Shown piece by piece: positions 2,693 to 23,043 of a stretch of DNA of 23,097 bases. The stretch comes from a virus, in the IMG/VR virus record IMGVR_UViG_3300036851_000455, positions 1 to 23,097 of that record; one strand, written 5' to 3'. The notes below the pieces were generated by a model. It saw nothing but the letters and a program-made list of their open reading frames with translations, had not been told where the DNA came from and searched no databases. The position numbers and the translations under genes are program-made. The first letter of the stretch is position 1. Every line of letters starts with the position of its first letter.

Positions 2693-2698
2693 GATGCG

Positions 2699-2704
2699 AT
2701 CGTA
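2699..2704 (-). promoter_or_regulatory. Candidate -10 box (TACGAT) of leaderless promoter
   Basis: TACGAT is followed by the 6-nt spacer CGCATC and then the ATG of the large virion gene at 2692. No Shine-Dalgarno sequence is present. The same arrangement occurs before four other ATGs in the window. No consensus -35 element is visible. Confidence 0.5.
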
Positions 2705-2809
2705 CTACTGCACCGCGCGAGCAAAGGTGTCCCCAGGGCGGAAGGTCCCGGTGTCCCCAGGACCGATGATGTCAAGGGCTGGCGCTGCCGCGTCCAACAG
2801 TCCGCCCAC
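2705..2809 (-). CDS. Possible 34-aa small ORF in the intergenic gap
   Basis: GTG at 2809 opens a 34-codon frame that ends in TAG at 2705-2707, directly abutting the TACGAT box of the next gene. The product would be mostly acidic/hydrophobic with a duplicated PGDT motif (GPGDTGTFRPGDTFARAVQ). The amino-acid composition looks plausible for a real peptide, but the ribosome site is weak (GGGCGGA about 11 nt upstream), and the same DNA has strong RNA-folding potential. The duplicated PGDT simply reflects a 12-nt direct repeat in the DNA. It may be a short peptide, a remnant or nothing. Confidence 0.3.
   Translation of the reverse strand: MGGLLDAAAPALDIIGPGDTGTFRPGDTFARAVQ
2726..2761. repeat. 12-nt direct repeat, two copies
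   Basis: GGTGTCCCCAGG (plus strand) occurs at 2726-2737 and again at 2750-2761. Both copies can pair with the same upstream arm of the inverted repeat at 2822-2835, giving two mutually exclusive RNA stems. Confidence 0.8.
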
Positions 2810-2835
2810 CCAAGTCCAACATCCGCCCTGGGGAC
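2729..2835. repeat. 14-bp perfect inverted repeat, 79-nt loop
   Basis: The arm at 2729-2742 (GTCCCCAGGGCGGA on the plus strand) is the exact reverse complement of the arm at 2822-2835. Both lie in the only sizeable gap of the ejection-protein block. In the minus-strand transcript this would form a long-range G+C-rich stem between the 479-aa gene and the large gene. Possible roles are attenuation, mRNA stabilisation or processing. There is no U-run, so it is not a typical intrinsic terminator. Confidence 0.75.
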
Positions 2836-2844
2836 CCGACCACC

Positions 2845-4284
2845 TTACTGCATCAGCGACGCGAGGTCACCGGCCCCGGATGATTGGCCCATCAGTGCTG
2901 CGACTTGCTGGGCCTGGACCTGCTGGGCCAGCTGCGCGGCAATGGCGTCTTGTTCTTGCTGCTGACGGGCCAACGCGGTGGACTGGGGCAGCATCGCCAA
3001 TTGGCTCGAGAACGCCACCCCCTGGTTCGCTGCCGAACGAAGCGCGTTGTCGGCCATCAAGGTGAAGTACCGGGCCTCCGCGTCGTTGCGTGCCGCCCCC
3101 GCGAGCTCCCGGTAGGACGCGGCCTGCACCTCGGCCGCGGCTTGCTGCTGTGCGAGTTGCGGCTGGACCCACTGCTGCAACGCCGCGGTCTGGGACTGGT
3201 CGTTGCGTCGCTGCTGAGCCGCGCCGTAGAGCCCCTGGACGTACTGAGGCATGGCACCGAGGAGTTGGGTGGCCGCGGTGGAAGACGCCTCGGCGCGCTT
3301 CTTGTCGGATTTCCCCGCGGCGATGAGCGCCACGTCGTACTGCGCCATCAGCTGGGATCGTTGTTCGGCCGACAGGTTGTAGGTGGCCATCGCCTCGGCC
3401 AGGGTCGCACGGTTGGTGTCGATGATCTGGGCGGGCTTGGGCTTGTCCTTGCGCCACAGAGCGTCAGCGACTTTGTTGTAGCCCACGTTCCCCACGCCAC
3501 CAACTCCGGCGCCGATGAGCCCACCGAAGGGACCACCGACGACCGTGCCGAACGTGCCTCCTGCTGCCGCGCCGGTCGCGGCCTGATCGAGAATCGAGTT
3601 GGCACCGCCGATGTTCAACCGGTCGACCCCCATGCCGGCGAGCGTCGCCGCCAACCCACCGGCACCGACCCGCGCGCCCGACGCAAGCCCTGGGAAACGC
3701 GACACCGCCGCGGCCCGTAACCCACCCCCAGCCGCGGCGGTGTCGACGGCAGCCGGCGCCGCCCACGGAGAGGAGAGTGCACGAGACGTGAAGGCCGATG
3801 AGGGGGCTGACGGGAGGGTCTGGCCGAGCATCGGGCCCTGAGCGAACTCGAGCCCGATGCGGGGGACCGTCGGGGCACGAAGAGCCGCGAGTTGCCCGGG
3901 GCCCCCGATCATCTGCTGAATGGCCGGCGCCGCCGGGGCCGCGGAAGCTGCAGTTGTGGAAGCCGACGGACCCATGATGCGCGACAGGAGCCCGGCGCGC
4001 GACGCGGCCCCTTGGGAGGCGATACCGGAGATCGCCTGACGCGACGCGGCGCCGTTGGACACCCCGGCTGTCGACATCTCGAGTGCACGCTTCGCCGCGC
4101 GCTGGTTGAGCTTGCGTCGCCCGTACAACGCGCCGCCGCCGAGAACGGCGAGGTTCATGGGATCCGACAGCATGGCCCCGAAGCCCGTCGCCGGAGGGGG
4201 CGCGAGAGCTTGGCCGGTGGCAGGGTCGATGCCCAAGATGCCCGACATGTCAACGGTAGGGACCGGAGGATCGTAGTACGACAC
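2845..4284 (-). CDS. Ala/Gly/Gln-rich virion protein, candidate internal (ejection) protein
   Basis: This 479-aa protein starts at GTG 4284 behind AGGAG in the tail of the preceding gene, 14 nt after that gene's stop. Three zones are visible. Residues about 1-200 are Ala/Pro/Gly-rich and low in complexity. Around residues 225-265 there is a glycine-zipper-like stretch (GGPFGGLIGAGVGGVGN) that could insert into or cross a membrane. The C-terminal half is a long Gln/Ala-rich helical region (for example QQQAAAEVQAASYRELAGAA and LAQQVQAQQVAALMGQ). Small Ala/Gln-rich proteins with a glycine-rich hydrophobic segment are typical of podovirus ejection proteins. The role here is inferred from composition and position; no enzymatic motif is seen. 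Confidence 0.85.
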   Translation of the reverse strand: MSYYDPPVPTVDMSGILGIDPATGQALAPPPATGFGAMLSDPMNLAVLGGGALYGRRKLNQRAAKRALEMSTAGVSNGAASRQAISGIASQGAASRAGLLSRIMGPSASTTAASAAPAAPAIQQMIGGPGQLAALRAPTVPRIGLEFAQGPMLGQTLPSAPSSAFTSRALSSPWAAPAAVDTAAAGGGLRAAAVSRFPGLASGARVGAGGLAATLAGMGVDRLNIGGANSILDQAATGAAAGGTFGTVVGGPFGGLIGAGVGGVGNVGYNKVADALWRKDKPKPAQIIDTNRATLAEAMATYNLSAEQRSQLMAQYDVALIAAGKSDKKRAEASSTAATQLLGAMPQYVQGLYGAAQQRRNDQSQTAALQQWVQPQLAQQQAAAEVQAASYRELAGAARNDAEARYFTLMADNALRSAANQGVAFSSQLAMLPQSTALARQQQEQDAIAAQLAQQVQAQQVAALMGQSSGAGDLASLMQ

Positions 4285-4298
4285 CTGGGAACTCCTGT

Positions 4299-5405
4299 CT
4301 ACTTCGGTCGGTAGTACCCAGGGGCGTTGTACCCCGGGGCCACGGTACCGCTGGCGATCGCGCTGTTCGCCGCGTTGAGCGCAGCCTGGGCGACCTGCAA
4401 GGCCGCGGACTGACGGTTGGCATCGTTGGACGACATGGCATCGGCGATCTGCGCCAGCGCACTGGCTGACTGCAAACCGATGTTGTTGAGCCCCTGCTTG
4501 AGAGAGTTCATGAGCTCCTCACGCTGCAGACCGAAATCCTGGGCGAGCAAATCCATGTTCTTGAGCCGGTTGTCGATCGTCGCCTTCTTCTCTTTGGCGG
4601 TGAGCTCGGTGTTGCGGAGATCGAAGTCCAGATCCGCAGACTGCTTGTCGATCGATGAGGACTCGCGGTCGTAATCGAGGGTGGCGCGGTCGTAGCCAAG
4701 CGCGTTCTGGCCCAACCCGATGTCGCGTGTCTGGCCGATGAACCCCCGTTGCTTGTTGACCCCTTCGCTGCCGAACGCCCCTCGTGCCGTGGCATCGGAG
4801 TTCGCGTTCCACAGGTCGCGGTCGTAGGTGAGTTGGGTGCCCATGTCCGCGAGGGAACGTTGCCGACCGGCCATGGCGTAGTCGCGGCCCGCGAACCCCC
4901 GGAGCTTGTCGAGATACGTGCGGTTGCTGCCGTGCTGCTCGCGGGCGATCCCGAGCCCTTCGTCCACGAAACCGGACTGGGCGCGCGCGAGGTCGATGTC
5001 GTAGAGGTTGCCCTGCTCTTTGAGCCCCAGGCGCCGTAGTGCAATGTCGGTCCCCTGGCGCGCCAGACCAGCTGATTGCCCGTACCCCCCCGCCATCCGT
5101 GCCCGCATCGCCGCGAGCTCATCGGCGCGCGAGTCGAATTGGGACAAGCCGGTGGAGTACTGCGCGAGGTAATCGTCGTACAGGTACTTGTAATTGGGGG
5201 TACCGAGGGTGGCATTGGGACCCCAGTAGCTACCAGACGTGGGATGGTAGGGGTCGGTGCCGCCTGCACCCATGGGGCGGTTCGGATCGGGGGAACCCAT
5301 GGTGCGGTTCTCGTCGCCGGTATAGCCCTCGTAGCGCACCGCGTCGGGCGACGACCACGAGCCATCGGCGTTCTGGACCGGGGCGTAGGGATCTACGTTC
5401 GACAT
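4299..5405 (-). CDS. Helical virion protein, candidate internal/ejection protein
   Basis: This 368-aa protein starts at ATG 5405 after a strong Shine-Dalgarno sequence (GAGGGGG) and lies 10 nt after the adaptor gene. The first 80 residues are polar and rich in Pro, Gly and Tyr (DPYAPVQNADGSWSSPDAVR), probably unstructured. Residues about 85-320 are long helices rich in Asp, Arg, Leu and Gln, with a coiled-coil-like stretch around residues 240-300 (LDFDLRNTELTAKEKKATID). The end is Ala/Asn-rich and finishes in GYYRPK. It is the first of three consecutive helical genes after the connector. It is probably packaged with or bound to the portal/tail; no enzyme motif is seen and the exact role is unknown. 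Confidence 0.85.
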   Translation of the reverse strand: MSNVDPYAPVQNADGSWSSPDAVRYEGYTGDENRTMGSPDPNRPMGAGGTDPYHPTSGSYWGPNATLGTPNYKYLYDDYLAQYSTGLSQFDSRADELAAMRARMAGGYGQSAGLARQGTDIALRRLGLKEQGNLYDIDLARAQSGFVDEGLGIAREQHGSNRTYLDKLRGFAGRDYAMAGRQRSLADMGTQLTYDRDLWNANSDATARGAFGSEGVNKQRGFIGQTRDIGLGQNALGYDRATLDYDRESSSIDKQSADLDFDLRNTELTAKEKKATIDNRLKNMDLLAQDFGLQREELMNSLKQGLNNIGLQSASALAQIADAMSSNDANRQSAALQVAQAALNAANSAIASGTVAPGYNAPGYYRPK

Positions 5406-5415
5406 CTCAGCCCCC

Positions 5416-6090
5416 TCACCAGCCGATCACCAGGTTGTTGAACCAGTCGCCGCGGCCGACCTGCTGATCGATGATCGCCCCGGGCTGGTCGGTGGCGCGC
5501 CGGGTCATGTCGATGATCGTCGCGATGTTGCGTTCGTGCCTCTCGAGCGCCTGCTGCCAACGCTGGTCCCGGGCCCGGAGAAACGCCCGGTACTCGGCGT
5601 AGTCGTACACATAGTGCGACCAGCCGTCGACCACATCGAGGTTCGTACCCGCAGGGGTCGCCTGCTTGAAATAGGAGACGTTGAGCGTGCCGGCCAGGTG
5701 CGGGGTGGGGTAGAGACGGATGGTGGAAGACGGAGGGAGACCCCAGATGGTGTAGAACTCGGGATAGTTCTCACCGGACAACTGATTGCCCCACACTCGG
5801 TCCATGGCGTGCAGATCGAGGTAGATCAGCGGGATGATCTGAGACTCACCGGTCGGCGCGAACGACACGTGATGAATCCGCAACATGTCCACCGGAGCGT
5901 TCGCGACTGTGGCCACGTGCGCAGTGACCGCGGGCGTCGCCGTCGCGAACAGGCACTCGGTGCGCGACGCGATCTCCGCGCACGCCTCATTCAGCCACGT
6001 GTCGAGTTGCGCGTCCGACCAGTGCGCCGCCGAGACCTCGTTGAGACGCGCCCGGAGGTTCGTCCGGGCAGTGGCGAGCGAGAGCGTCAT
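5416..6090 (-). CDS. Head-tail adaptor/connector protein (candidate)
   Basis: This 224-aa protein begins MTLSLATARTNLRARLNE and continues with a helix of the form WSDAQLDTWLNEACAEIASR. A short N-terminal helical bundle of this kind, followed by a beta-rich middle (IRLYPTPHLAGTLNVSYFK) and a helical end (YAEYRAFLRARDQRWQQALE), is characteristic of podovirus adaptor proteins of the T7 gp11/tail-tubular-A type and of related phage connectors. Its role would be to link the portal ring to the tail nozzle. It lies between the nozzle candidate and the ejection proteins, which fits. The ATG at 6090 has no Shine-Dalgarno sequence but has TACGAT 6 nt upstream. Family assignment rests on the helix pattern and context. 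Confidence 0.85.
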   Translation of the reverse strand: MTLSLATARTNLRARLNEVSAAHWSDAQLDTWLNEACAEIASRTECLFATATPAVTAHVATVANAPVDMLRIHHVSFAPTGESQIIPLIYLDLHAMDRVWGNQLSGENYPEFYTIWGLPPSSTIRLYPTPHLAGTLNVSYFKQATPAGTNLDVVDGWSHYVYDYAEYRAFLRARDQRWQQALERHERNIATIIDMTRRATDQPGAIIDQQVGRGDWFNNLVIGW

Positions 6091-6096
6091 GGTGCG

Positions 6097-6102
6097 ATCG
6101 TA
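6097..6102 (-). promoter_or_regulatory. Candidate -10 box (TACGAT) of leaderless promoter
   Basis: TACGAT, spacer CGCACC (6 nt), then the ATG of the adaptor gene at 6090. There is no Shine-Dalgarno sequence at usable spacing. The box lies in the 36-nt gap after the low-G+C gene. Confidence 0.5.
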
Positions 6103-6126
6103 CTCTCCCGTGAGGTGGTCGTCGTG

Positions 6127-6690
6127 CTACGCAACGCGACTGTTCTTGAACGACTCGACAATGAAAAGCTGATTTCTGTCGTTGGTGTCCGACAGCAGGT
6201 TGTCACCCGAGTTGACCAGCGCCCGCAACGTAAATGTCCACGCGCCGGCAGGCAGGATTGTGTCGAGCCATTCGACTTGACCAACCCATGTACGGTGATC
6301 AGACACGGTATTGAAGAAATAATTGCCTATCGTGTAATCGGTTGCCGCAAATCCGGCGTCGGTGTTGGCAATCTGCAGACCAAAAGTCACACCCCCCCCG
6401 ACCGTATTCTTGTACGCGCTTCCAGCGGCGATCACCGTCAGTTTCGTTTCAGCCCCGTATCGTTTGGTAAATGTGCCGGTAAGTGGGGTACCTGTAGGCC
6501 AGTCAACGAATGTTCCCGAATTCGTATTTGACCCACCAGGAGACCCCGCGCGGATATCACCGATATTGGGAAGATCGAGCGGGAGTCGATTACCCCAATC
6601 CTGCAATCTGCCGATGAATTCACTCCACTCGACATCAGTCTCTGGCCGTTTCGCGGGGAGCGAAAGCTGAAACGAGTTGAGCCCAGTCAT
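6127..6690 (-). CDS. Beta-rich virion-associated protein of foreign base composition
   Basis: This 187-aa protein starts at ATG 6690, 4 nt after the stop of the nozzle gene. The first 45 residues are helical (VEWSEFIGRLQDWGNRLPLD). The rest is a run of beta strands with Gly/Thr/Asn turns (TPLTGTFTKRYGAETKLTVI, WLDTILPAGAWTFTLRALVN), like a small jelly-roll or C1q/TNF-type module found in phage fibres and decoration proteins. Its codons favour A/T at third positions far more than its neighbours, and the local DNA is close to 50% G+C, so it was probably acquired recently. Wedged between two tail-machine genes, it may be a receptor-binding or tail-decorating protein. The function is inference. 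Confidence 0.8.
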   Translation of the reverse strand: MTGLNSFQLSLPAKRPETDVEWSEFIGRLQDWGNRLPLDLPNIGDIRAGSPGGSNTNSGTFVDWPTGTPLTGTFTKRYGAETKLTVIAAGSAYKNTVGGGVTFGLQIANTDAGFAATDYTIGNYFFNTVSDHRTWVGQVEWLDTILPAGAWTFTLRALVNSGDNLLSDTNDRNQLFIVESFKNSRVA

Positions 6691-6694
6691 CGGA

Positions 6695-8551
6695 TCAGCC
6701 CTTCACCACCGGGTTGCCCGGTGTGGTATGCAGGCGGATGCCGATGACCTTGGGCGCGGGCCCGGTGGACGCGGAGGTTTCGATGCGGATCACCACGTAC
6801 CGGGCTTCGAAGTTCACGATGTCGGCTTCACGGTAGGTCAGCCGACCGTTCTCCTGCATGTCGCTGATGGTCCACGTCGCGGGGGTGAGCGCCACACCAT
6901 TGCGGTCGTAACCGGTGAGGGTGATGGTGACCGTAGCGACGGTGCTGTCAGATGCGGCGATGGCTTTGAGCTCGATGCCAGCGAAGTTGACCAGCGTCCG
7001 TCGGGTCTCCACGAGGGGCTGGGACTGCCAGCTGTACGACGATGCCGGGACGGTCCGATCGAAGCGATACCACGGGACGGCACCGCCGGAAGGGATCTTG
7101 TAGGGAAAGGCGTACAGCTTCCCGGTGTAAGGGGCCACATCGTAATGCGACCACCCGATGGAGGAGTAGTTCGCGGGGTCATCGAGGCGCCACCACCCGC
7201 CGCCTTGGGTGTCGAACAAGAAGTTATTGGGGACGAACACCTTGCCGTCCCAGTACGCGAGGCGACCAAGGTAACCCTGCAAGGGCTCATTGGTCGGGGT
7301 CGCGCGGTACTCCCAGAACATCGAGTCCATCTGGGGGGAAAGGTGCTTGGATTCGGTGCCCCCGTTCCAGACGTACACCCCGCGGCGCGTGAGATAGACG
7401 AACCCGATAGGGCACACCACGCCTTTGGAGATGACACCGTAGGTGGGCTCGAGCATGGGGAGGCGCACGATGGTGGGGTTGGCGATGTCGCCCCGGATCA
7501 TCCATCCGCCCCCGATCGACCGGATACCGATGAGCTCCGAGGCGTTGAGCGACGCCATGGCGCCGATGCCCGCAGTGGCGAACTCTTCGGCAAAGACCGC
7601 GCCGATGCTGAACGTCCCAGTCGGATCACGCACCGGGGTGTAGGTCACCACCTCGTAAGGCCCCGGGGCTGGGTTGAGTCCACACAGGACCGCCCGCCCT
7701 TGATGTAAAGCGAACACCTGGGGGCCATAGGTCAACAGGCCAGTGCCGGGACCCACGTTGATGGACGGGGTTTGGGGCACATTGACCCGCGTAGCTCCGT
7801 AGTTCGCGCCGGGATAGCTGACCTGCACATCAGTGTCGAACGTCGTGAGCGCGGCATCACTACCCCCGATCACCCCGGAGGAGAGTTGCGCGAACCACGC
7901 GCCGTAGAACGCCCGACCCTGGGGGCCTGCACTAAACCCACCTCCCACCGAGCCGGGATCGTAGAACGCCCGTTCCGTCCACCCCGGCGGGATAGGCCGT
8001 GGAGTCACAACCAACCCCACGGCGTTCTCCCGCATGAAGAAGAAATCCTTCGCCGCGGCACCCGAGTATTCGAAGAACACCCGACCGATCGCGTAGGCGC
8101 GATACCCGTTGACCGTGCCGTTGCCGCCCGTATCGTAGGCGAACCCGAACATGACGTTGACCACATCAGGGTTGGTGGCATAAGCACGCGCGAGATCAGA
8201 GTTGGAGGAGCTATACGGACCGTCGATCCCCGCATCGAGAATGTACATCGCCAACTGGTTCGTGGGATAGAACGTGGGCGAGGTGAGAGTGCCAGGAGGA
8301 GTGACGGTGTACTGGGAAGCCACCCCCACCGGAAGAGGGATGAGCGCCCCCGTGCGATCGGCGACGCACCGGTAGGTGTTGGCCTTCGAAGCCGCCACCG
8401 CGCCGCCGCCGGCTTCCGTTGCCGCTGCGGGAACAGGGAGTGAATGATCGGCCGCGACATCGGAGTACTCGTCATCCACGATCCCCGGACGGAAATCGGT
8501 GAGATCAATGTACGCGTAGCCTTCGGGGTTCCAGTCCTCCACCACAGTCAC
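6695..8551 (-). CDS. Tail nozzle / tail hub protein (candidate)
   Basis: This 618-aa protein starts with GTG at 8551, overlapping the previous stop as GTGA. The N-terminus (YIDLTDFRPGIVDDEY) resembles the 'D-x-x-x-F-x-x-G-I' opening of podovirus nozzle/hub proteins. The body is almost entirely beta, with repeated blade-like segments containing Trp/Tyr and Gly (GVYVWNGGTESKHLSP, YLGRLAYWDGKVFVPNNFLF, GKLYAFPYKIPSGGAVPWYR), consistent with a beta-propeller. The C-terminal 110 residues look like a separate beta-sandwich (ELKAIAASDSTVATVTITL ... RYVVIRIETSASTG). The size and fold fit T7 gp12-like or P22 gp10-like proteins that close the tail and contact the adaptor. It could alternatively be another tail-hub component. 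Confidence 0.85.
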   Translation of the reverse strand: MTVVEDWNPEGYAYIDLTDFRPGIVDDEYSDVAADHSLPVPAAATEAGGGAVAASKANTYRCVADRTGALIPLPVGVASQYTVTPPGTLTSPTFYPTNQLAMYILDAGIDGPYSSSNSDLARAYATNPDVVNVMFGFAYDTGGNGTVNGYRAYAIGRVFFEYSGAAAKDFFFMRENAVGLVVTPRPIPPGWTERAFYDPGSVGGGFSAGPQGRAFYGAWFAQLSSGVIGGSDAALTTFDTDVQVSYPGANYGATRVNVPQTPSINVGPGTGLLTYGPQVFALHQGRAVLCGLNPAPGPYEVVTYTPVRDPTGTFSIGAVFAEEFATAGIGAMASLNASELIGIRSIGGGWMIRGDIANPTIVRLPMLEPTYGVISKGVVCPIGFVYLTRRGVYVWNGGTESKHLSPQMDSMFWEYRATPTNEPLQGYLGRLAYWDGKVFVPNNFLFDTQGGGWWRLDDPANYSSIGWSHYDVAPYTGKLYAFPYKIPSGGAVPWYRFDRTVPASSYSWQSQPLVETRRTLVNFAGIELKAIAASDSTVATVTITLTGYDRNGVALTPATWTISDMQENGRLTYREADIVNFEARYVVIRIETSASTGPAPKVIGIRLHTTPGNPVVKG

Positions 8552-8850
8552 TTGGCACTCCCTGTCTCGAATTGCTGGAGCGCCGCCAGTCCTGCTTGCA
8601 CCTCGAGCGCCGCGAGTCGTTCCCGCGCGAGGTGAGCTTGGACTTCACCGCGCTGGCGGATCACTTCACGGCGCTGCAGGGAAGACGCCGCGCGGGCGTC
8701 GTTTTCTTTACCGGAGGACGATGTGGCCTGGGAGTAGAGGTAGCCGTTCAGCCACGCGACTTCAGCGTCGATCTCCACGGTTGCGCAGTCGCGGATCGCG
8801 GCCACGAGCTCGGCGGTGACCGCGCGGTGAGCCTCGAGGGGAGACATCAT
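8548..8850 (-). CDS. Small helical protein of unknown function
   Basis: This 100-aa, nearly all-helical protein is rich in Ala, Arg, Glu and Gln (VIRQRGEVQAHLARERLAAL). It starts at the first of two adjacent ATGs (8850), overlapping the previous stop as ATGA, and ends overlapping the next start as GTGA, so it is translationally coupled on both sides. It contains no Cys cluster, membrane segment or catalytic motif. Its place between a beta-rich virion protein and the nozzle candidate suggests a small tail component or assembly factor. I do not recognise the family. Confidence 0.85.
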   Translation of the reverse strand: MMSPLEAHRAVTAELVAAIRDCATVEIDAEVAWLNGYLYSQATSSSGKENDARAASSLQRREVIRQRGEVQAHLARERLAALEVQAGLAALQQFETGSAK

Positions 8851-9632
8851 GCTGCCGCGAACGCGGCTTGGATCGCGACGGTATCGGTGGCCACAGCCAT
8901 CGTCCAGTTGATGGTCTGATTGCCGGCTGCAGTGACTTCCTTGTATTGCCCCCCGACTTCGATGCTCGTTGTCGACGTACCCGAATCCGATTTGACCATG
9001 CGGTTACCCGCCCATGATCCGTTGGTTGTATCGGAGTCGTAGGTGGGGTCGGCGTTCGATTCCATCGCCATCATGCCCACCGTGAGTTCACCGGCTGCCG
9101 TCATGGCCACTGCCGGTGATACCGAAAGGCTGGTTGCTGAACCGATGCCGTAGGACTCCCCGACCGGCTCTGTCGTCGTCCACCCCGAGAACGCCTCCAC
9201 ATACGCGGCCTTCATCGCTACCGCGTCCGACAACGTGACAGTGATGGTGTCGCCGACCTCCAGAGCGGTGGTGGGGCTGCATTTGAACATGGCCCCTGCT
9301 ACCCCGGTACCCGCGGCAATGGGACGGACCCCTTGGCCGACAAGAGTCCACGTGTTGGCGCGAGAATCAGCGCACGTGAACGTCGGTGTGGTGCTCGAGG
9401 CGTTGTCCACCCCGATACGCAAGATGAGCAGCACCCCAATGGGCACTGCAACATCGACGGTGAGCGCGATGGTGGTGTCCGATACGCTGTCGATGGCCTG
9501 GGCGATGAGCGCACCGACAGCGGGGGGACCTGCTGGTGGGGAGGATCCAGATGCCGAGATGCACTTACGGATCAGACCAAGAGTTCCACATCTCCGTTCG
9601 ATGCGCGTTCCTCGCTTGATACTGCCCGACAT
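8847..9632 (-). CDS. Beta-rich virion protein (fibre or decoration type)
   Basis: This 261-aa protein starts at ATG 9632 after GGGGGAT. A short basic N-terminus (SIKRGTRIERRCGTLGLIRK) and a Ser/Pro/Gly linker lead into a domain of about 210 residues with alternating beta strands. It contains SRANTWTLVGQG, a GVAGAMFKC strand and GDTITVTLSDAVAMKAAYVE. This is the pattern of extracellular-type beta-sandwich domains carried by many phage virion proteins ('xxNxW' followed by a 'GDTITVTxS' strand). The end is Ala-rich (VATDTVAIQAAFAAA). It may bind host surface sugars or decorate the tail; no enzyme signature is seen. Confidence 0.82.
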   Translation of the reverse strand: MSGSIKRGTRIERRCGTLGLIRKCISASGSSPPAGPPAVGALIAQAIDSVSDTTIALTVDVAVPIGVLLILRIGVDNASSTTPTFTCADSRANTWTLVGQGVRPIAAGTGVAGAMFKCSPTTALEVGDTITVTLSDAVAMKAAYVEAFSGWTTTEPVGESYGIGSATSLSVSPAVAMTAAGELTVGMMAMESNADPTYDSDTTNGSWAGNRMVKSDSGTSTTSIEVGGQYKEVTAAGNQTINWTMAVATDTVAIQAAFAAA

Positions 9633-9635
9633 CGG

Positions 9636-9812
9636 CTAATCCCCCGTAGGAGGGGCAGCCAACGCGGCAGCGAGCTCCCGATGCGCGGTGGTGATGATCC
9701 GGGCTTCTTCCTCGATCGAATCGGCGGTGACTTCGAACCGGGCCATGGCAAGCAGCCGCCCGAAGAGCTCAAGGGTTTCCGATGAGAACGTCTTGTCGGT
9801 CATACCGGTCAT
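9636..9812 (-). CDS. 58-aa helical protein coupled to the fibre gene
   Basis: ATG at 9812 overlaps the stop of the fibre gene as ATGA; a second in-frame ATG follows at 9803. The product starts MTGMTDKTFSSETLELFGRL and is two helices with a conserved-looking pattern of Leu, Phe and Glu (ARIITTAHRELAAALAA at the end). Small proteins of this shape directly after tail-fibre genes are often assembly helpers or trimerisation factors. That role is inferred from position only. It is too short for most gene callers, but start and stop spacing on both sides fit the operon. Confidence 0.7.
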   Translation of the reverse strand: MTGMTDKTFSSETLELFGRLLAMARFEVTADSIEEEARIITTAHRELAAALAAPPTGD

Positions 9813-10924: not shown

Positions 10925-10925
10925 C

Positions 10926-11204: not shown

Positions 11205-11225
11205 CGATCAAGCCCCTCCTGGGAA

Positions 11226-12158: not shown

Positions 12159-12190
12159 GTGACTGCCTTTCCATTAGGCCAGGTGCCAGA

Positions 12191-12221: not shown

Positions 12222-12256
12222 GTCCTGCACGTGGCGTGTGCTCCTGGGCCTGGGGA

Positions 12257-13836: not shown

Positions 13837-13848
13837 AGATATCGCTCC

Positions 13849-15132: not shown

Positions 15133-15135
15133 GTG

Positions 15136-15525: not shown

Positions 15526-15534
15526 CAGGGAACC

Positions 15535-15885
15535 TCAGACGTCCGGGTCGTCGTGCCCGAGAAGATCGACGTCGATCTCGTCGGGGACTTCATCGAAAGG
15601 ATCGGGCGTCGGGGTGTCACGCACGACCGCGTGCATCACTTCGATGCGATCAACCGTCGGGAAGGACGCGGAGACCGTGATCGCCTCGTCCACCGAAGTG
15701 AACGGCCCGAGGACCACCGAGTTCTCGTCGTTCGACACGAGCGTGCGGATTTCGACGTGGAAGCCATCAGGGAGCCACGACGGGTACCCGTCGGTGTCCT
15801 CGTCGGCCGACGCTTGTTCCACGATGACCGGCGGATCCTCCGGGAGGAACGGATCAACGTCCCCAGAGGTATCTGTGTCGGTCAC
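15535..15885 (-). CDS. Acidic small protein of unknown function
   Basis: This 116-aa, strongly acidic protein (MTDTDTSGDVDPFLPEDPP) starts at GTG 15885, overlapping the previous stop as GTGA. The middle is a compact alpha/beta domain (FHVEIRTLVSNDENSVVLG, FTSVDEAITVSASFPTVDRI). The end is Asp/Pro-rich (IDVDLLGHDDPDV). The acidity and the location upstream of the scaffold could suit an assembly chaperone or DNA mimic, but this is speculation. Confidence 0.83.
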   Translation of the reverse strand: MTDTDTSGDVDPFLPEDPPVIVEQASADEDTDGYPSWLPDGFHVEIRTLVSNDENSVVLGPFTSVDEAITVSASFPTVDRIEVMHAVVRDTPTPDPFDEVPDEIDVDLLGHDDPDV

Positions 15886-16037
15886 TTGATCGACTCGTTC
15901 ATCGCGCCGTTGCGGTTGCCGCCGCGGGTCTTCGCGCGGGCGTCCTGACCGTAACGCGAGCCCGTGGTGTGACCGACCTGCACGATGGGCGCGGAGCCCT
16001 TCACTGCCGGCAGCTTCGGCGTCAGCTTCTCAGCCAT
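15882..16037 (-). CDS. 51-aa basic protein
   Basis: This short gene starts at ATG 16037 behind AGAGG and reads MAEKLTPKLPAVKGSAPIVQ at the start, ending NRNGAMNESIK. It is basic and Gly/Arg/Lys-rich (RAKTRGGNRNG), probably unstructured and possibly nucleic-acid-binding. Its stop overlaps the next start as GTGA. A TACGAT box lies 34 nt upstream, so it may be the first gene of a promoter-driven unit that includes the scaffold and capsid genes. Confidence 0.75.
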   Translation of the reverse strand: MAEKLTPKLPAVKGSAPIVQVGHTTGSRYGQDARAKTRGGNRNGAMNESIK

Positions 16038-16070
16038 GTGAGTACCTCTTTGGTCGAAAGGGTTGATTCA

Positions 16071-16076
16071 ATCGTA
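16071..16076 (-). promoter_or_regulatory. Candidate -10 box (TACGAT) with short leader
   Basis: TACGAT in the context GTACTACGAT, matching other boxes in the window. The ATG (16037) lies 33 nt downstream and has its own AGAGG site, so here transcription would give a short 5' leader rather than a leaderless start. This could drive the scaffold-capsid unit. Confidence 0.4.
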
Positions 16077-16115
16077 GTACGAAACCGGATGGGATCGCAC
16101 GATGGACACCGCTGG

Positions 16116-16280
16116 TTAGCGGACGATGATGGCGGTGTCGTCGTCGCCGGGGCGCGTCGCGTTGACTTCGCGCTGCATCTGGCGGTCATTGGGCTGGCGG
16201 TTCATGGTGACTACGCACGCGTCGGGGTCGCCGCCGGGGGAGAAATTGGCGATGGTGCCAGGGGGATTGTGGTTGTTCAC
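16116..16280 (-). CDS. 54-aa protein of unknown function
   Basis: GTG at 16280 is preceded by a perfect AAGGAG at ideal spacing, 14 nt after the portal stop. The product begins MNNHNPPGTIANFSPGGDPD and ends DDDTAIIVR; it is polar, with no membrane segment. It is too short for many callers, but the strong ribosome site and tight spacing support it. The role is unknown. Confidence 0.75.
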   Translation of the reverse strand: MNNHNPPGTIANFSPGGDPDACVVTMNRQPNDRQMQREVNATRPGDDDTAIIVR

Positions 16281-16294
16281 CAGGAGCTCCTTGG

Positions 16295-18166
16295 TTACTT
16301 GCGCCCGGCGCGCTGCCGGGCTCCGGGGGGCTGCATCATGCCGTGAGCCTTCGCTTCACGGACACGGGCGAGAGTGCGTTGCCAGTTCGGCGGCGCGACG
16401 ACTTCCAGGACCGCTTCGTCGTCGTACGCGCCGATCGTGTAGAGGTTCATGGCCTCGGCGATGCGCGCCGCGCGGGAAGTGGGGAGGGAGGAGCCCGCTT
16501 CGATGTGCAGCTGGTAGCGCATCGGCGCGCGGCCCTTGGCCGACGGAAGCCACCAGTGGAGACCCCGCAACGCAATCGCGGATTCCTGACCCCCTTGGCC
16601 AGTGAGAGCAACGATGCGCGGGGTGTCATAGAACTCCACGATGAGAGAAGCGATCTTGTCACCGACGCGATGCAAGGTCCGCTCGAGATTACGTTGCGCA
16701 ATACGCACCCGGACAAACGCCGATTCTTGGACCGCTTCCATCGTGCCCTGGGAGTTGCGCTGCCCGTTGATCCCCCCGCGGTTGATGGAGGTCAGCCCGG
16801 AGATCGCTTCCATGCGGTCGACGTAGAACGAGACGAGTCCCATGGCGAAGTTCTCGGTGCCCATCGACGGGGGAGTCATGAACTCCGCGCGCGAGTTGGG
16901 GTTGACCGTGAGGCGTGTGCCCGGCTTGTTGGTGATCGCAGCGCGCTGCAGACCCGAGCGGGTGTCTTCCATGAACACCGGGTTGCCGGTCAACCAGATG
17001 TTGTGCTCGAGCGCGGCGAGCAGACGATTGATCGAGATCTGCGCGGGAGCAAGCAGTTCGACCAGGGATTGGCCCCACATCTCGCCGGTTTCCTGCAGCA
17101 CGTACTTCTCGTAGGGGTGCTGGCCGTGGGACCAGAGCTCGGTGGCCGGCTCGTTGAACAGCACACGATCCGACGCGGTGACCAGGCACCGCCACCGTTC
17201 AACGGTGCGCATCACCGGGGAGCCATCGTCCGCGGTCACGGATTCGTCGCGCACGTAGAAGTGCTCGCGCACCCACGTCTCGAGGACCGTGACCCCAGGG
17301 TCGGCATCCATTGGGCCGTTGAACCCCTCGGCGCCCGCGGGGCGATACGCCGCGCTGCCGCCAGCCACACCGGTCGCGGCTTCGGGGATCGGGCCATAGG
17401 AAGGGATCGACGCGGGACGCCCGGTCGGATTGATCCGATCAGGGGTGCGGTCATGGTCCGCGCGGTACTCACGGCCCTTGAGCTTCTTCGCCGCGCCGGG
17501 GAACCGCCGATCGAGTTCTTCGATCGAGACCGTGCGCACCTCTTGGAGGTAACCGAGGGACTCCCAGGAAGTGCCGAGAGGATCGAGGTACATGGTGAAC
17601 GGGTCGACACGGCGCATCGTCGCGTCGCCGAGCCCACCGCATTTCACCGGATCCCAGACCGCCTTCATGAACCCGGTGCCGTAGACATTCGCGTCCCACA
17701 GCATCGTTTCGATCTCAGCGTCGTAGTCGTTGACCTGCCAGACCGCGCGCAAGGTGGTGACGAGATCCTGGGCAAGTTGCGAATGCCACGCCGCGTCTTG
17801 GGAGTGCGGAGGCATCGACGGGGTGCAGAAGAACGTGGGCTTCCCGTCGGTCTGCCAACCCACGATCGCCGAGACAATCGGCCAGATCTCCGGGAGCTCC
17901 GGCGACGGCATCCACGCGGCGCGCGCGCCCCACGTGCGGTTGTGCAAGACGTTGTAGTTGCGCAGCCACCGTTCCACGAGCGGCCGACGGAACTGGCGCG
18001 CGTGGCGGAAGAGTTGCAGCGCGTAGGCCGCGAGGGTGCGTTCCGACTCGGCGTCGCTGTCGGGAACCAGCTGGGTCGTCGCACCGGGCGCGAGGCGCTG
18101 CGAGAGCAGACCTGGCGACGCCGCAGGGAGGATGTCCTCGAGGGTCAGCGACGACTCACCAGCCAT
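16295..18166 (-). CDS. Portal protein
   Basis: This 623-aa protein of the portal class forms the ring at the capsid vertex through which DNA enters. Early hallmarks are a helical start, then RRPLVERWLRNYNVLHNRTW and PEIWPIVSAIVGWQTDGKP, typical of portal wings. Later regions include YEKYVLQETGEMWGQSLVEL, SINRLLAALEHNIWLTGNPV and VSFYVDRMEAISGLTSINRG, matching the stem/clip helices with a conserved 'G-x-x-x-I-N-R-G' turn. It lies one gene after large terminase and before scaffold and capsid, the expected order, and its length fits portals of 500-750 aa. The ATG at 18166 has no Shine-Dalgarno sequence but has TACGAT 7 nt upstream. A long frame on the opposite strand is a high-G+C shadow. Confidence 0.92.
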   Translation of the reverse strand: MAGESSLTLEDILPAASPGLLSQRLAPGATTQLVPDSDAESERTLAAYALQLFRHARQFRRPLVERWLRNYNVLHNRTWGARAAWMPSPELPEIWPIVSAIVGWQTDGKPTFFCTPSMPPHSQDAAWHSQLAQDLVTTLRAVWQVNDYDAEIETMLWDANVYGTGFMKAVWDPVKCGGLGDATMRRVDPFTMYLDPLGTSWESLGYLQEVRTVSIEELDRRFPGAAKKLKGREYRADHDRTPDRINPTGRPASIPSYGPIPEAATGVAGGSAAYRPAGAEGFNGPMDADPGVTVLETWVREHFYVRDESVTADDGSPVMRTVERWRCLVTASDRVLFNEPATELWSHGQHPYEKYVLQETGEMWGQSLVELLAPAQISINRLLAALEHNIWLTGNPVFMEDTRSGLQRAAITNKPGTRLTVNPNSRAEFMTPPSMGTENFAMGLVSFYVDRMEAISGLTSINRGGINGQRNSQGTMEAVQESAFVRVRIAQRNLERTLHRVGDKIASLIVEFYDTPRIVALTGQGGQESAIALRGLHWWLPSAKGRAPMRYQLHIEAGSSLPTSRAARIAEAMNLYTIGAYDDEAVLEVVAPPNWQRTLARVREAKAHGMMQPPGARQRAGRK

Positions 18167-18173
18167 ACGTGCG

Positions 18174-18179
18174 ATCGTA
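18174..18179 (-). promoter_or_regulatory. Candidate -10 box (TACGAT) of leaderless promoter
   Basis: TACGAT in the context GTACTACGAT, 7-nt spacer CGCACGT, then the portal ATG at 18166. No Shine-Dalgarno sequence lies in the 39-nt gap upstream. Confidence 0.5.
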
Positions 18180-18205
18180 GTACGACGAAGACCAAGATCG
18201 AAGTA

Positions 18206-18730
18206 CTAGGCACTCACCCGCTTGCCCGTCCGCGCGTTAACCGCAGCCTGGCGGCGCTGGATCTCCTCAAGATGCTTCTTGCGCTCGGTGACCGAAGCGA
18301 ACTCCGTGGGGCGAACGTCGCGTGCCGTCGAGTGCGCGAATTCGGCGTGCAGGGAGCGGCCTTCGCGCTTGGCGCGCGCGATCTCGGCCTGGAGTTCGGG
18401 ATCGATGCCCGCAGCCTGAGCGCGTTCCGAACCGTCGACTTGGGTGAAGCGATGCGGGATACCAGTACGTTCGGTCGCGAGTTCGGAAGCAACGTGGAGC
18501 TCCCGATCAAACTGTTTGCGATCGGAGATGGGTTTGCCGACCGTGGGATTGAAGTGCTCCTGCATGACTGGTGAGAACTGCACGGCCCAGACGCGGCGCA
18601 TGATGCCGTCGCGATCGTCTTCGTAGCAGTCGAAACAGTGGCCGATGGAGTCGACAGCACACTCTTCGGGAGAGCCGGTCAGGGTCTCTTCGGCACCACA
18701 CGTGCGGCAGCGGTACAGGTAGGTGGGCAT
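18206..18730 (-). CDS. FmdB-type zinc-ribbon protein
   Basis: I start this gene at ATG 18730, giving 174 aa, because MPTYLYRCRTCG is the classic opening of FmdB-family zinc ribbons. A frame 19 codons longer is possible but adds an unrelated lead. Cys8-x-x-Cys11 and Cys32-x-x-Cys35 form a zinc-binding set. The C-terminal part is helical and charged (SVTERKKHLEEIQRRQAAVN), suggesting protein or nucleic-acid binding. FmdB-like ribbons are found in actinobacteria and their phages, often as putative regulators. Placed between large terminase and portal, it could bind packaging or head proteins. The zinc-ribbon call is solid; its job is unknown. Confidence 0.85.
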   Translation of the reverse strand: MPTYLYRCRTCGAEETLTGSPEECAVDSIGHCFDCYEDDRDGIMRRVWAVQFSPVMQEHFNPTVGKPISDRKQFDRELHVASELATERTGIPHRFTQVDGSERAQAAGIDPELQAEIARAKREGRSLHAEFAHSTARDVRPTEFASVTERKKHLEEIQRRQAAVNARTGKRVSA

Positions 18731-18752
18731 GGGGGAGGATGCTCCTTGGATG

Positions 18753-20474
18753 TCAGGTTCTTGCAGAGACGAACCCTGCAGCAGCAAGGCGTTCTTCCAG
18801 ATAAGTGTTAGGTGGTTGCTCGAGCTCGACGGTTCCGGTCGCGGAGACGGTCAAATCGGCGACGACCGCAGGAAGGTGGTCCTGCCAGCCTTCTCCGTAG
18901 GCGCGGAGCGTGGGGGACAGGACGTGGGTGACTGCGGCGATGGCGAGGGCCATCACGGTGTCGTCGTGGGATTCGCCGTCCGCGTTGCCGTAGTTGCCGT
19001 CAGGGAGCTTCACGTAGTTCTTCATCTCGCGGAACGTGTCAGCATCGTGGAGCAAGAGACCGAATCCCCGTGCGTCGAGACCATCGACCACGAAGGCGAG
19101 GAGTTGGCCGATCGCCACTTCTTTGCCTTGGACGGTGGTCTGCCAACCCCAGTTGTCTTCCACGATGTTGCCCGGGGTCTTCTCCATCTTGGAGTGCATC
19201 CACATGTTGGGGTACTGGGCCCCGAGGAGTGCACCGATGGTCAACGCACCCGGGCCTTGTTTCTCGACGGCAAGCTGGGCTTGGTTGTAAAAGATGCCGA
19301 GTTTGAACATCTCTTCGCCGAAGTTGCGGGGATCCATGCGTTGCCGGAACACCGCGCACTGTTCCATCGTGCGCCGGGAGATGACCTGGCCGACGGCGAA
19401 GTCCCCGTCGGTGGTGCGGGTCGGGTCGGCGCCAACCTGGTAGATGCCCCAGTCGCGGTCGCGGGAAGGGTCGCGATAGATCTTGAGCGGACCAGTGGCA
19501 TCTTCATGGAACACGACGTGATCGCCTTGCCGTGTGAGTCGGCCGACCTTCGGGACCATCGGCCGGTAGATCGCTTGGAGCTTCTCGAGCGGGTACACGT
19601 TGTGGCCGGTGGAGATGAACGCTTCCTCGGCGGACGCGGGGTACTCCTGGTGAAACAGCAAGATGTCGCCGCCACACAGGGAGCGGATCGCCCAGCGTCG
19701 CCACGCCAGCTGATCATCGTCTACCCCGAGCAGACGAAGGCAACGTTCGTCTTCATCGAGGGGACCGAGAGCGGGGATGTCACGGGTTCGGTGCGCGACG
19801 GTGTAGCGGTAGTCCTCGTATGCGAACCAGGGATAGAACACCGGCTCGTAGTCGAGCTCACCGGAACACGCGGCTTCCCACTGCAGATTGAAGTAGTCGC
19901 CGATGCCGTTGGCGGTGGACTCCATGACGATGAGGGTCTGGTCCTCGGTCGGGACCGACTGCAGTAACCCGAGGCAGAACTTCTTCGCGTCGGGGTAGAA
20001 CGCGAGCTCGGAAAGATGCAGCGCACGGTGGGTCTTGCCGCGGCCGGCTTTGCGGTTACCAGCCGTCGCGATCTCGAGTCGCGACCCGTGCATCCAGGAG
20101 AGGACGTTCTCCTTGTCGTTCTTCGTGGTGTAGAACTCCCGCAACGGGTAATGCGCCCAGAACGTGTGGTCCTTGCGGAGCAGAGACAGCGCGGTGTCAT
20201 CGTCGTGAGCAACAGTGATACCGGTGTAGTTGTCGAGGTTCATCGCGTGGGTGAACATCACACCCTGTGTCGCCGTCGAGAGCCCCATCTGGCGGGCCTT
20301 GAGGACGATGATGCGGATCCGGCCCCGGTGCGCAGCCTGGTTCTCCATGCGGGCCAAGAAGTCGCGCTGGACGCTGTTCGGGGTGAACGTCGCGATCTGC
20401 CCGGTGCGGCGCTGCTCGATCTTGAGCCGAGCGATATGCGGGGCGTAGAAGCTCACCAGAGACCCCGCCCACAC
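18753..20474 (-). CDS. terL: Large terminase (packaging ATPase-nuclease)
   Basis: The N-terminal ATPase has LKARQMGLST at residues 58-67, the modified Walker A of terminases. ALHLSELAFY at 151-160 carries the Walker B position, with Glu156, and IVMESTANG at 182-190 is the coupling motif. The C-terminal nuclease shows the acidic cluster of RNase H-like terminases: GADPT near Asp350, VEKQGPG near Glu404 and ESHDDT near Asp504/505. The 573-aa length is normal. It cuts concatemeric DNA and pumps it into the procapsid through the portal. The start is uncertain: GTG 20474 opens the frame, but GTG 20456 overlaps the stop of a 12-codon frame as GTGA, like other couplings here, giving 567 aa and a start of MSFYAPHIARLK. 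Confidence 0.95.
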   Translation of the reverse strand: MWAGSLVSFYAPHIARLKIEQRRTGQIATFTPNSVQRDFLARMENQAAHRGRIRIIVLKARQMGLSTATQGVMFTHAMNLDNYTGITVAHDDDTALSLLRKDHTFWAHYPLREFYTTKNDKENVLSWMHGSRLEIATAGNRKAGRGKTHRALHLSELAFYPDAKKFCLGLLQSVPTEDQTLIVMESTANGIGDYFNLQWEAACSGELDYEPVFYPWFAYEDYRYTVAHRTRDIPALGPLDEDERCLRLLGVDDDQLAWRRWAIRSLCGGDILLFHQEYPASAEEAFISTGHNVYPLEKLQAIYRPMVPKVGRLTRQGDHVVFHEDATGPLKIYRDPSRDRDWGIYQVGADPTRTTDGDFAVGQVISRRTMEQCAVFRQRMDPRNFGEEMFKLGIFYNQAQLAVEKQGPGALTIGALLGAQYPNMWMHSKMEKTPGNIVEDNWGWQTTVQGKEVAIGQLLAFVVDGLDARGFGLLLHDADTFREMKNYVKLPDGNYGNADGESHDDTVMALAIAAVTHVLSPTLRAYGEGWQDHLPAVVADLTVSATGTVELEQPPNTYLEERLAAAGFVSART

Positions 20475-20491
20475 CCACGACCGTCGACCAT
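20453..20491 (-). CDS. Possible 12-codon leader peptide before terL
   Basis: ATG at 20491 lies exactly 6 nt after TACGAT, as at the other leaderless starts, and opens MVDGRGCGRGLW followed by TGA. That TGA overlaps an in-frame terL GTG (20456) as GTGA. It may be a real leader that couples translation into terL, or a chance frame that merely marks where transcription starts. Confidence 0.3.
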   Translation of the reverse strand: MVDGRGCGRGLW

Positions 20492-20497
20492 GGTTCG

Positions 20498-20503
20498 ATC
20501 GTA
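20498..20503 (-). promoter_or_regulatory. Candidate -10 box (TACGAT) before terL
   Basis: TACGAT with a 6-nt spacer (CGAACC) to an ATG at 20491; it abuts the last codon of the upstream gene. The same box and spacing stand before the portal, adaptor and large virion genes. Confidence 0.5.
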
Positions 20504-20887
20504 CTAACTGACCGCAGGAGCCGGGGGTGCCGGGGGTGCTGGAGGGGTGTCCTCGGTGGCTTCCGGTGCGCGCGCGACGCCGAAGTTGCCGGCGAACGTC
20601 TGGCGCATCTCGGAGATCTGGGCCTCGAGCTCCCGCAGCCGATCGGAGTCATCGGACGCCGCGGCTTCCTTCACCATCGCCGGGAGGAACTGCTGCGCGA
20701 CACGAACGCGGGTGGCCATATCGGCGTTCGACATCGCGTAGTCGGCGATGTCCAGTGCCTTGTTGGCGAGGGCGTGGATCCGACCTTTGAGCTCAGGTCC
20801 GTGCTCGGGGTCGTGCATGAGCTCCTGCATCGCGACCGCGACCATCTGCACACCGGACGGGTTCCCAGAGGAACGTGGGGTGGCCAT
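20504..20887 (-). CDS. Candidate small terminase subunit
   Basis: This 127-aa protein starts at ATG 20887 (MATPRSSGNPSGVQMVAVAM), overlapping the previous stop as TGATG. It is mostly helical, with a block NADMATRVRVAQQFLPAMVK and a coiled coil (SDRLRELEAQISEMRQTFAG), then an Ala/Pro tail (APPAPPAPAVS). Small terminases are short helical oligomers encoded just before the large subunit, so location and shape fit. I do not see a clear DNA-binding helix-turn-helix, so an unrelated helical protein is possible. Confidence 0.8.
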   Translation of the reverse strand: MATPRSSGNPSGVQMVAVAMQELMHDPEHGPELKGRIHALANKALDIADYAMSNADMATRVRVAQQFLPAMVKEAAASDDSDRLRELEAQISEMRQTFAGNFGVARAPEATEDTPPAPPAPPAPAVS

Positions 20888-21921: not shown

Positions 21922-22162
21922 CACCCACCCGCGCCTTGAGCTCACTTACAGCATCTTCGAACGCTTCGATCGCATCTTCTTCGGTGGGATACTCACCGAG
22001 CCGTATCGACATACCGGGGAGAAACGCAAGGAGATGCCAGCTGATACCCGCGTCATCGAGAGTGTCGGCGCTAGACCAGATGGTCATGGTTCTGCGCTCG
22101 TAAGCGAACCCGATGATCTGGTCACGATCGACCACAACGTTGCCGTAACGGAACAAGTTCAT
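21905..22162 (-). CDS. 85-aa protein, unknown
   Basis: Starts at ATG 22162, overlapping the previous stop as ATGA. It reads MNLFRYGNVVVDRDQIIGFA and then TMTIWSSADTLDDAG, with a helical acidic end (TEEDAIEAFEDAVSELKARV). The beta-beta-beta-helix order resembles small nucleotide- or protein-binding folds, but nothing specific is recognised. Confidence 0.8.
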   Translation of the reverse strand: MNLFRYGNVVVDRDQIIGFAYERRTMTIWSSADTLDDAGISWHLLAFLPGMSIRLGEYPTEEDAIEAFEDAVSELKARVGDGSLP

Positions 22163-22407
22163 GAGGGTTCTCCGTAGAGCTCGGGTCGACGTTCGCGATG
22201 TGACGGTGTGGGGCGTGGCCCGTGCCAGTTCGGCGCGGTGCCGGCGACGACACCTTTGGGTCGGTGGATCTTCCCTTGTCCACGGCTGTTGACGGGACGG
22301 CGGACACTCGAGGTGTCACCGACGGTGCCGAGCGGCATGCACGTGCACGGGGTTTCGTAGCGGTGCCAGACCCCGAACATGCAGCGGTAGCGACCCGGGG
22401 GCCCCAT
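22159..22407 (-). CDS. 82-aa basic Cys-containing protein, unknown
   Basis: Starts at ATG 22407, overlapping the previous stop as TAATG, and ends overlapping the next start as ATGA, so it is coupled on both sides. It begins MGPPGRYRCMFGVWHRYETP followed by CTCMPLG. Three Cys and one His in the first 25 residues could bind a metal. The rest is basic, rich in Arg/Pro and probably disordered (GKIHRPKGVVAGTAPNWHG). The function is unknown. Confidence 0.72.
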   Translation of the reverse strand: MGPPGRYRCMFGVWHRYETPCTCMPLGTVGDTSSVRRPVNSRGQGKIHRPKGVVAGTAPNWHGPRPTPSHRERRPELYGEPS

Positions 22408-22829
22408 TACAGTGCCTCCCCGGTCAGGTCCGGTCGCATGAATCCTTGCGCCGGGGTGGCGAACTCGCCGCGTTTGAACGCTTCGACCAAGTTGCCGTTG
22501 GTGGCGGCGAAGGTCCCCGCCGGCACGCTCGCAACCCGTCCACCCTCTGGTCTCCCGCCGTCGAAATCGGGGATCTGCAGGTCGGTGGGGTCGGCGCCAC
22601 TTTCCCCACGTAGTTCCCGCGCGACGCCTTGTTCCATGAACGTGGCGAACATCGCAAGCTGCTCGCTGTCGAGCGGGAGTTGCGGGACCGGCGCCGCGGG
22701 GGTCTCACGTAGCGCAACGGCGGTGGTCTGCTCAAGGGCCCCGGTGATGGATTTGAGGATGCGGTCGAACACCCACGCGCCGACCACCAGGGTGGCGATG
22801 CGAGCCAAGGCGGCAGTGAGGTGGTTCAT
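22407..22829 (-). CDS. 140-aa protein with N-terminal hydrophobic helix
   Basis: Starts at ATG 22829, overlapping the previous stop as ATGA. Residues about 4-24 (LTAALARIATLVVGAWVFDR) form a hydrophobic helix that could be a membrane anchor or signal-anchor. A helix near residues 55-75 (SEQLAMFATFMEQGVARELR) and a Gly/Pro-rich end follow. It may sit in the host membrane; holin function is not supported because only one hydrophobic helix is seen and no endolysin lies nearby. Confidence 0.78.
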   Translation of the reverse strand: MNHLTAALARIATLVVGAWVFDRILKSITGALEQTTAVALRETPAAPVPQLPLDSEQLAMFATFMEQGVARELRGESGADPTDLQIPDFDGGRPEGGRVASVPAGTFAATNGNLVEAFKRGEFATPAQGFMRPDLTGEAL

Positions 22830-23008
22830 GATGGTCTCGCGATCGTGTTGCCCGACTCGATGGTGACGGTGATGAGTTCGGGTTCGTTCATGTCCTGAAA
22901 GGTCGGCCCGTCCAGCACGAGCGACGGTGACCAGAGCAGGTGTTCACTGGCGCTGTAGGTCCGACCCTTGTACCGGTGAAGCACAACCTGAGTGGAGATG
23001 AGTCCCAT
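22826..23008 (-). CDS. 60-aa protein, first gene of the small-gene operon
   Basis: Starts at ATG 23008 with no Shine-Dalgarno sequence but with TACGGT 7 nt upstream. It reads MGLISTQVVLHRYKGRTYSA ... ITVTIESGNTIARPS, a small beta-type protein. It ends overlapping the next start as ATGA. Leaderless transcription from the box at 23016-23021 would feed this gene and the seven that follow. The function is unknown. Confidence 0.78.
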   Translation of the reverse strand: MGLISTQVVLHRYKGRTYSASEHLLWSPSLVLDGPTFQDMNEPELITVTIESGNTIARPS

Positions 23009-23015
23009 GGGTCCG

Positions 23016-23021
23016 ACCGTA
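23016..23021 (-). promoter_or_regulatory. Candidate -10 box (TACGGT) of leaderless promoter
   Basis: TACGGT in the context GTACTACGGT, 7-nt spacer CGGACCC, then ATG at 23008. This is a one-base variant of the TACGAT boxes elsewhere. Confidence 0.45.
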
Positions 23022-23043
23022 GTACGGGACCGGGGAGTGGGTG

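Follow-up and report, generated by a model that had tools for sequence, protein, structure and literature searches.

Near-identical -10-like boxes repeated ahead of virion genes suggest leaderless expression in an uncultured virus and its distant relatives

Leaderless promoters are already known in actinobacteria and have been predicted in actinophages. In the TA-led leaderless genes of Actinobacteria and Deinococcus-Thermus, a TANNNT hexamer is placed with its first T about 12 nt before the start codon (Zheng et al., 2011, PMC3160421), and the leaderless transcription start sites (TSSs) of mycobacteria prefer C at position -1 (PMC4633059). With regard to phages, SigA promoters giving leaderless mRNAs have been predicted in the cluster O mycobacteriophage Corndog (PMC4351075), and a further leaderless promoter at gene 90 of Adephagia (PMC11373665). 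Cluster K mycobacteriophages carry the SAS/ESAS repeat (GGGATAGGAGCCC), located mainly before non-structural genes and proposed to function in translation initiation (PMC3203893). Here we describe six near-identical 15-bp elements, TAS-TACGRT-YGNAYC, in the virus record IMGVR_UViG_3300036851_000455 (a complete linear record of 23,097 bases with a GC fraction of about 0.65, hereafter the window). All of them are intergenic and lie on the coding (minus) strand, and five end 0-1 nt ahead of an ATG that has no usable Shine-Dalgarno (SD) sequence. With respect to the open-access literature, what is new is the repetition of a uniform -10/discriminator box through a virion gene block, together with the family-wide demonstration of leaderless promoters in uncultured phages.

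The boxes listed in a preliminary description of this DNA are all present on the minus strand, five as TACGAT and one as TACGGT. In the order of transcription, box 5 (TAC-TACGGT-CGGACC, 23010..23024, hexamer 23016-23021) stands with its hexamer 7 nt before ATG 23008, and box 4 (TAG-TACGAT-CGAACC, 20492..20506, hexamer 20498-20503), which overlaps the TAG stop of the gene upstream, 6 nt before ATG 20491. Box 3 (TAC-TACGAT-CGCACG, 18168..18182, hexamer 18174-18179) lies 7 nt before ATG 18166, box 2 (GAG-TACGAT-CGCACC, 6091..6105, hexamer 6097-6102) 6 nt before ATG 6090, and box 1 (TAG-TACGAT-CGCATC, 2693..2707, hexamer 2699-2704) 6 nt before ATG 2692. As a consequence of this spacing, which is 7 instead of 6 nt at the sites 18174 and 23016, the first T of the TANNNT core falls 12-13 nt upstream of the five start codons. 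Box 6 (TAC-TACGAT-TGAATC, 16065..16079, hexamer 16071-16076) is followed by no ATG and stands 33 nt from a start codon, with a separate SD in between.

Conservation extends beyond the hexamer, as had been proposed, and is statistically unusual according to consensus matching, column counts and resampling against relatives. With up to one mismatch allowed, the consensus ASTACGATCGNAYC hits no place but the six sites, every other match in the window carrying at least two. The conserved columns (n = 6) are T at -15 (5/6), A at -14 (6/6), the hexamer TACG[A/G]T, C at -6 (5/6), G at -5 (6/6), A at -3 (6/6) and C at -1 (5/6); the only other columns reaching 5/6 are -23 and +21, where chance would yield 1.6 such columns among the 48 upstream. 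Outside the 15 bp of the element, the sequences upstream of the six boxes are unlike one another, and the repetition of the box is therefore not the result of recent copying of long segments. In this regard, the window resembles the TA-led genes (PMC3160421) in the distance of TANNNT, the lack of SD sequences and the high GC content, but the three middle bases, which are of low information content in those genes, are CG[A/G] at 6/6 sites here, and conserved flanks are added at -14, -6, -5, -3 and -1. It also differs from Corndog (PMC4351075), where +1 is likewise predicted at the first base of the start codon and one promoter lies in the structural operon, in that the promoters of that phage are few and individually predicted, whereas the window repeats one near-identical box through the virion block.

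Searches of IMG/VR with patterns drawn from single proteins (TerL and portal) returned no close kin. Alignment of TerL recovered kin at no more than 48% identity and alignment of the capsid protein 48 loci at 35-47% identity, 47 of which (L235-L281) were used for spacing counts. On the coding strand of these loci, the arrangement TANNNT-Nd-ATG occurs 77 times at d = 6 and 36 times at d = 7, against 8-24 (about 15) at other distances, and the spacing profile of the opposite strand is flat. A motif-free test over XYNNNZ patterns likewise gave TANNNT at d = 6 as the strongest signal (z of 23.7, with the runner-up at 8.3). Summed over 13 gene families, the distances 6 and 7 account for 41 and 15 cases, respectively, compared with 0-10 (median about 3) at the other distances. 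An in-frame box precedes the adaptor gene in 12 of 34 loci including the window (11 of 33 relatives), every one at d = 6, and the portal gene in 11 of 51 loci including the window (10 of 50 relatives); the ejection protein gene has boxes in the relatives L273, L279 and L240 as well. Two further families, p5405 (7 of 31 loci) and p8551 (6 of 40), are boxed among the relatives though leadered in the window, and no recurrent box was found before the scaffold orthologues of the relatives. In the relatives' boxes C stands at -1 in 75% of cases, and G is favoured at -16 and -13.

Taken together, the spacing peaks and the recurrence ahead of orthologues strongly support leaderless virion genes as a trait of the whole group, the promoters being placed at similar gene borders while the sequences of the boxes turn over. 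Leaderless starts at the boxed ATGs, suggested in the preliminary description, find strong support in the relatives, in which TANNNT stands 6-7 nt before the ATG of the same genes (adaptor, portal and ejection protein), and agree with the actinobacterial TANNNT rule (PMC3160421). At the five sites of the window, the spacing of the -10 element and the C at -1 place the predicted TSS at the A of the start codon or next to it. The mycobacterial leaderless transcripts (PMC4633059), whose TSSs were mapped experimentally whereas those of the window are predicted, show the same arrangement: the -10 element sets +1 at the start codon's A or G, with a preference for C at -1 and no SD.

The lack of SD sequences before the boxed ATGs, also claimed earlier, applies to four of them, whose SD scores (-0.5 to -3.3 kcal/mol) equal the median for random sequence (-3.2) or are weaker; ATG 6090 does have a GGGAGAG motif (-7.9 kcal/mol), but at 15-21 nt upstream it is too distant to act as a normal SD. 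As for box 6, transcription would start at A 16064 and produce a 27-nt leader bearing the SD AAAGAGGT. This box retains the flank YGNAYC followed by A in spite of the absence of an ATG, and because of this the flank points to a feature of DNA, namely of the promoter, rather than of translation.

Our findings allow us to propose, with a probability of roughly 0.85, that each box is a -10 element flanked by conserved bases, and that together they mark six host-sigma promoters of the virion block, five of them leaderless and one short-leadered. The boxes look like the -10 elements of the actinobacterial housekeeping sigma factor, which we infer to be their reader, and the phage probably infects a high-GC actinobacterium. 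According to this proposal, the host RNA polymerase carrying the housekeeping sigma would recognize TACGRT, A-14 and the fixed discriminator YGNAYC and would need no -35 box. At five sites transcription would begin at the A of the ATG or 1 nt before it, and 70S ribosomes would translate the resulting leaderless mRNAs with no SD to guide them; from box 6, the same promoter would yield the short SD-bearing leader. The promoters would lie where one module gives way to the next (first small genes, terL, portal, scaffold-capsid, adaptor and ejection protein), adding fresh starts within one long co-directional run, and the shared sequence may serve a common strength or timing of the genes.

The absence of a -35 element, remarked on in the preliminary description, was confirmed: TTGACA-like sequences 16-18 nt upstream reach at most 3/6 matches at any site of the window and were rejected as -35 elements of these promoters. 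The relatives show a weak excess of a -35-like box at a spacer of 17. An extended -10 of the TG type was likewise discarded, since five sites have T-15 A-14 and one has G-15 A-14. A promoter consisting of a -10 element only is normal for the RNA polymerase of such a host.

Several observations weigh against the proposal as a whole. The evidence on the host comes from a single distant relative, L101, the nearest one found in a host genome bin, which is assigned to Acidimicrobiaceae, and binning can err. In addition, a housekeeping sigma factor alone needs neither a near-identical hexamer middle nor a near-identical discriminator, and those of most relatives differ. Only a minority of the orthologues carry a box, and given the distance of the relatives (TerL at most 48% and major capsid protein at most 47% identity) the exact box is untraceable in close kin.

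The uniformity of the boxes is indeed the feature that most relatives do not share, their boxes being diverse, with 2.6 of 8 variable positions in common between random pairs. The boxes of the window share 6.3/8 per pair (calculated for the four that pass the open reading frame (ORF) filter), and the three boxes of the relative L280 (G007), with TACACTCGA, share 7.0/8; neither value was reached in 2000 resamplings. In L280/L282 the uniform box TACACTCG occurs exactly three times in 31 kb (L282:56, 4585 and 16027), each time 6-7 nt before an ATG. The window phage and this one other phage thus repeat a single box version, which is unusual. A second feature appears in relatives, where TCC stands at -38 to -36, that is, 23 nt before TANNNT, in 23 boxes, and at most 5 at any other position; the carriers are L026/L181-L182 (G005), L027/L183-L184 (G006), L267/L298-L299 (G017) and ten others. 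Across 40 genomes of Acidimicrobiia, TCC at that distance ahead of TANNNT-N6-ATG is not enriched (205 cases, compared with 206 when the spacing is shifted), and therefore looks like a phage-specific upstream promoter element.

These two features could be explained by a phage-specific factor, whether an activator, a phage sigma or a protein that remodels sigma, that reads the extra bases instead of a -35 and switches on the virion block late, which we regard as possible, if rather improbable. Besides the repeated box of the window and of L280, the TCC of the G005, G006 and G017 phages and the missing -35, the low enrichment of TACGATCGN4ATG in 100 Acidimicrobiia genomes (just about 2.4-fold) is in line with this idea. 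Against it, TCC at -38 is absent from the window and actinobacterial promoters frequently have no -35. Moreover, none of the 21 records of the window phage and its relatives holds a gene for sigma-70 region 2 or region 4 above the cut-off, a result that is weak either way as many of these records are partial and the window is itself a fragment. A T7-type RNA polymerase (PF00940) had no match in the 21 records either, in a search whose control genomes held no positive. The phage-modified or phage-encoded polymerase put forward in the preliminary description finds no direct evidence. In bacteriophage T4, the middle promoters (MotA/AsiA) combine a -10 element with the lack of a host-type -35. The phages studied here are comparable in that a further phage element, the TCC that some relatives have at -38, possibly assists, but no activator gene was identified and the window has no MotA-like box. 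A tentative version of the same idea, which we hold to be no more probable, is that a lineage-specific factor takes the place of the -35 contact at the virion promoters. Each lineage would have fixed its own auxiliary element on a common leaderless -10 scaffold (TACGATCGNA in the window, TACACTCGA in L280, TCC at -38 in the L026/L027/L267 group), and a phage protein able to reprogram the host polymerase would use the box as its address.

It is unlikely that the 10-bp near-palindrome TACGATCGNA represents an operator for a dimeric phage regulator, overlapping the -10 element. C-6, G-5 and A-3 do complement G-9, C-10 and T-12, and four sites equal their own reverse complement at 8/10 positions; nonetheless, the other two match at 6/10 only, none of the six sites has the T needed to complete the palindrome, the conserved A-14 and C-1 are not symmetric, and the box of L280 has no such symmetry. 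Still less plausible is a start-associated signal for translation that acts in the RNA, in the manner of the cluster K SAS. Most copies of the box do stand directly ahead of the ATGs of SD-less genes, and SAS/ESAS (PMC3203893) is also a short phage-specific repeat a few nucleotides before starts, mostly ATG, of many genes per phage. However, box 6 has the same sequence, and its start codon lies 33 nt away, preceded by a separate SD; the sole constant core in the relatives is the -10 pattern TANNNT; and SAS, located 3-7 bp from the start, has a different sequence, whereas the sites of the window precede structural genes and read as -10 elements. Finally, the notion that TAC-GAT is a common Tyr-Asp codon pair of the coding strand, a few copies of which happen to precede ATGs, can be practically dismissed. 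It is true that 11 of the 17 TACGRT hexamers of the minus strand lie outside the six sites, but chance predicts 0.2 occurrences of TACGRT-N6-ATG in the window, where three true minus-strand sites are found at this spacing alone (together with one fortuitous match at 10851 of the plus strand); the extended match sets the six sites apart from all others, and the family-wide spacing peak of the relatives already refutes this idea.

In IMG/VR, the exact extended box occurs as GTASTACGATCGNACC in 13 stretches and as TACGATCGNACCATG in 48, with one match per stretch; these were set aside as chance matches, the contigs having mostly another GC content and 1/13 being followed by an ATG-led ORF. Among 396 Actinomycetota genomes, TACGATCGNACCATG has 5 exact matches, and hence it is not a common host promoter. 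For the shorter form TACGATCG-N4-ATG, about 92 cases were counted among the matches listed from the 100 Acidimicrobiia genomes, compared with 39 when the spacing is shifted by 3; the shifted spacing was used as control since the backwards pattern contains the rare CTAG and is unfair. Acidimicrobiia hosts thus appear to use such promoters, but only about once per genome, whereas the 23 kb of the window contain three such sites, or six if the wider element is counted.

The preliminary description had also deduced at least six transcription units. The six promoters are supported, but separate units are not: a terminator scan of positions 1-19999 found 4 sites, compared with 10 in shuffled sequences, and the single one on the coding strand lies inside a gene. 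With so few terminators, the transcripts begun at the different promoters probably overlap and do not form six isolated units.

The terminase large subunit, portal, major head and adaptor-like structural proteins were identified by PHROG matches; all are encoded on the minus strand, in a podovirus-like order. The first gene of the block, of 60 aa, starts at ATG 23008 behind box 5. The portal gene (16295..18166) has its predicted leaderless start behind box 3, as do the adaptor-like gene (5416..6090) behind box 2 and the gene of a large ejection-type protein (1..2692, more than 897 aa, running off the record) behind box 1. Box 6 serves a 51-aa gene with SD (15882..16037) that heads the scaffold-capsid run. 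Near the equivalent place, many relatives have leaderless genes of 58-67 aa after the portal gene (L277:7971 and 8243, L258:5039 and 5323, L264:7277, L265:7656, L276:1252), several of which begin with M..YNPVSNPNP.

ATG 20491, previously taken as the start of terL, opens instead a 12-codon ORF, MVDGRGCGRGLW (20453..20491), the TGA of which shares bases with the GTG at 20456. In an alignment with six relatives, the N-terminus of TerL falls at this GTG, with terL covering 18753..20456 (alternative GTG at 20474). Behind box 4, MVDGRGCGRGLW would be a leaderless minigene translationally coupled to terL. Since the relatives show no spacing peak for leaderless minigenes, it is a single case.

Leaderless expression, predicted so far one by one for a few actinophage genes, is extended by our results to a family-wide mode for virion genes in uncultured phages. 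They also provide a simple rule, read from the sequence, by which start codons can be corrected and promoters called in such phages. Whether the host polymerase is reprogrammed or a strong host-type promoter has only been copied becomes testable, in turn, through the uniform box and the phage-specific TCC at -38 of relatives.

Outside the virion block, a second promoter type was seen by eye in relatives, with the form CCC-NN-TGGG(T)-TACANT-GGG, often a TTGAC-like -35 and 7 nt to the ATG. It was observed at L297:5387 and 17672 and L296:5581 (G016), at L182:9526 (G005), at about 16865 of L183 on the reverse strand (G006) and twice in L298-L299 (G017), and these sites may be early promoters that include an operator. 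Upstream of box 5, towards the record end, the window holds a perfect inverted repeat, AGTAAGTGAT-N5-ATCACTTACT (23050-23074). Eight records (the window, at 23022-23097, and L249, L260, L268, L270, L273, L275 and L280) end 42-76 nt upstream of their first leaderless box, suggesting that the genome has a true, fixed end shortly ahead of the first virion-block promoter.

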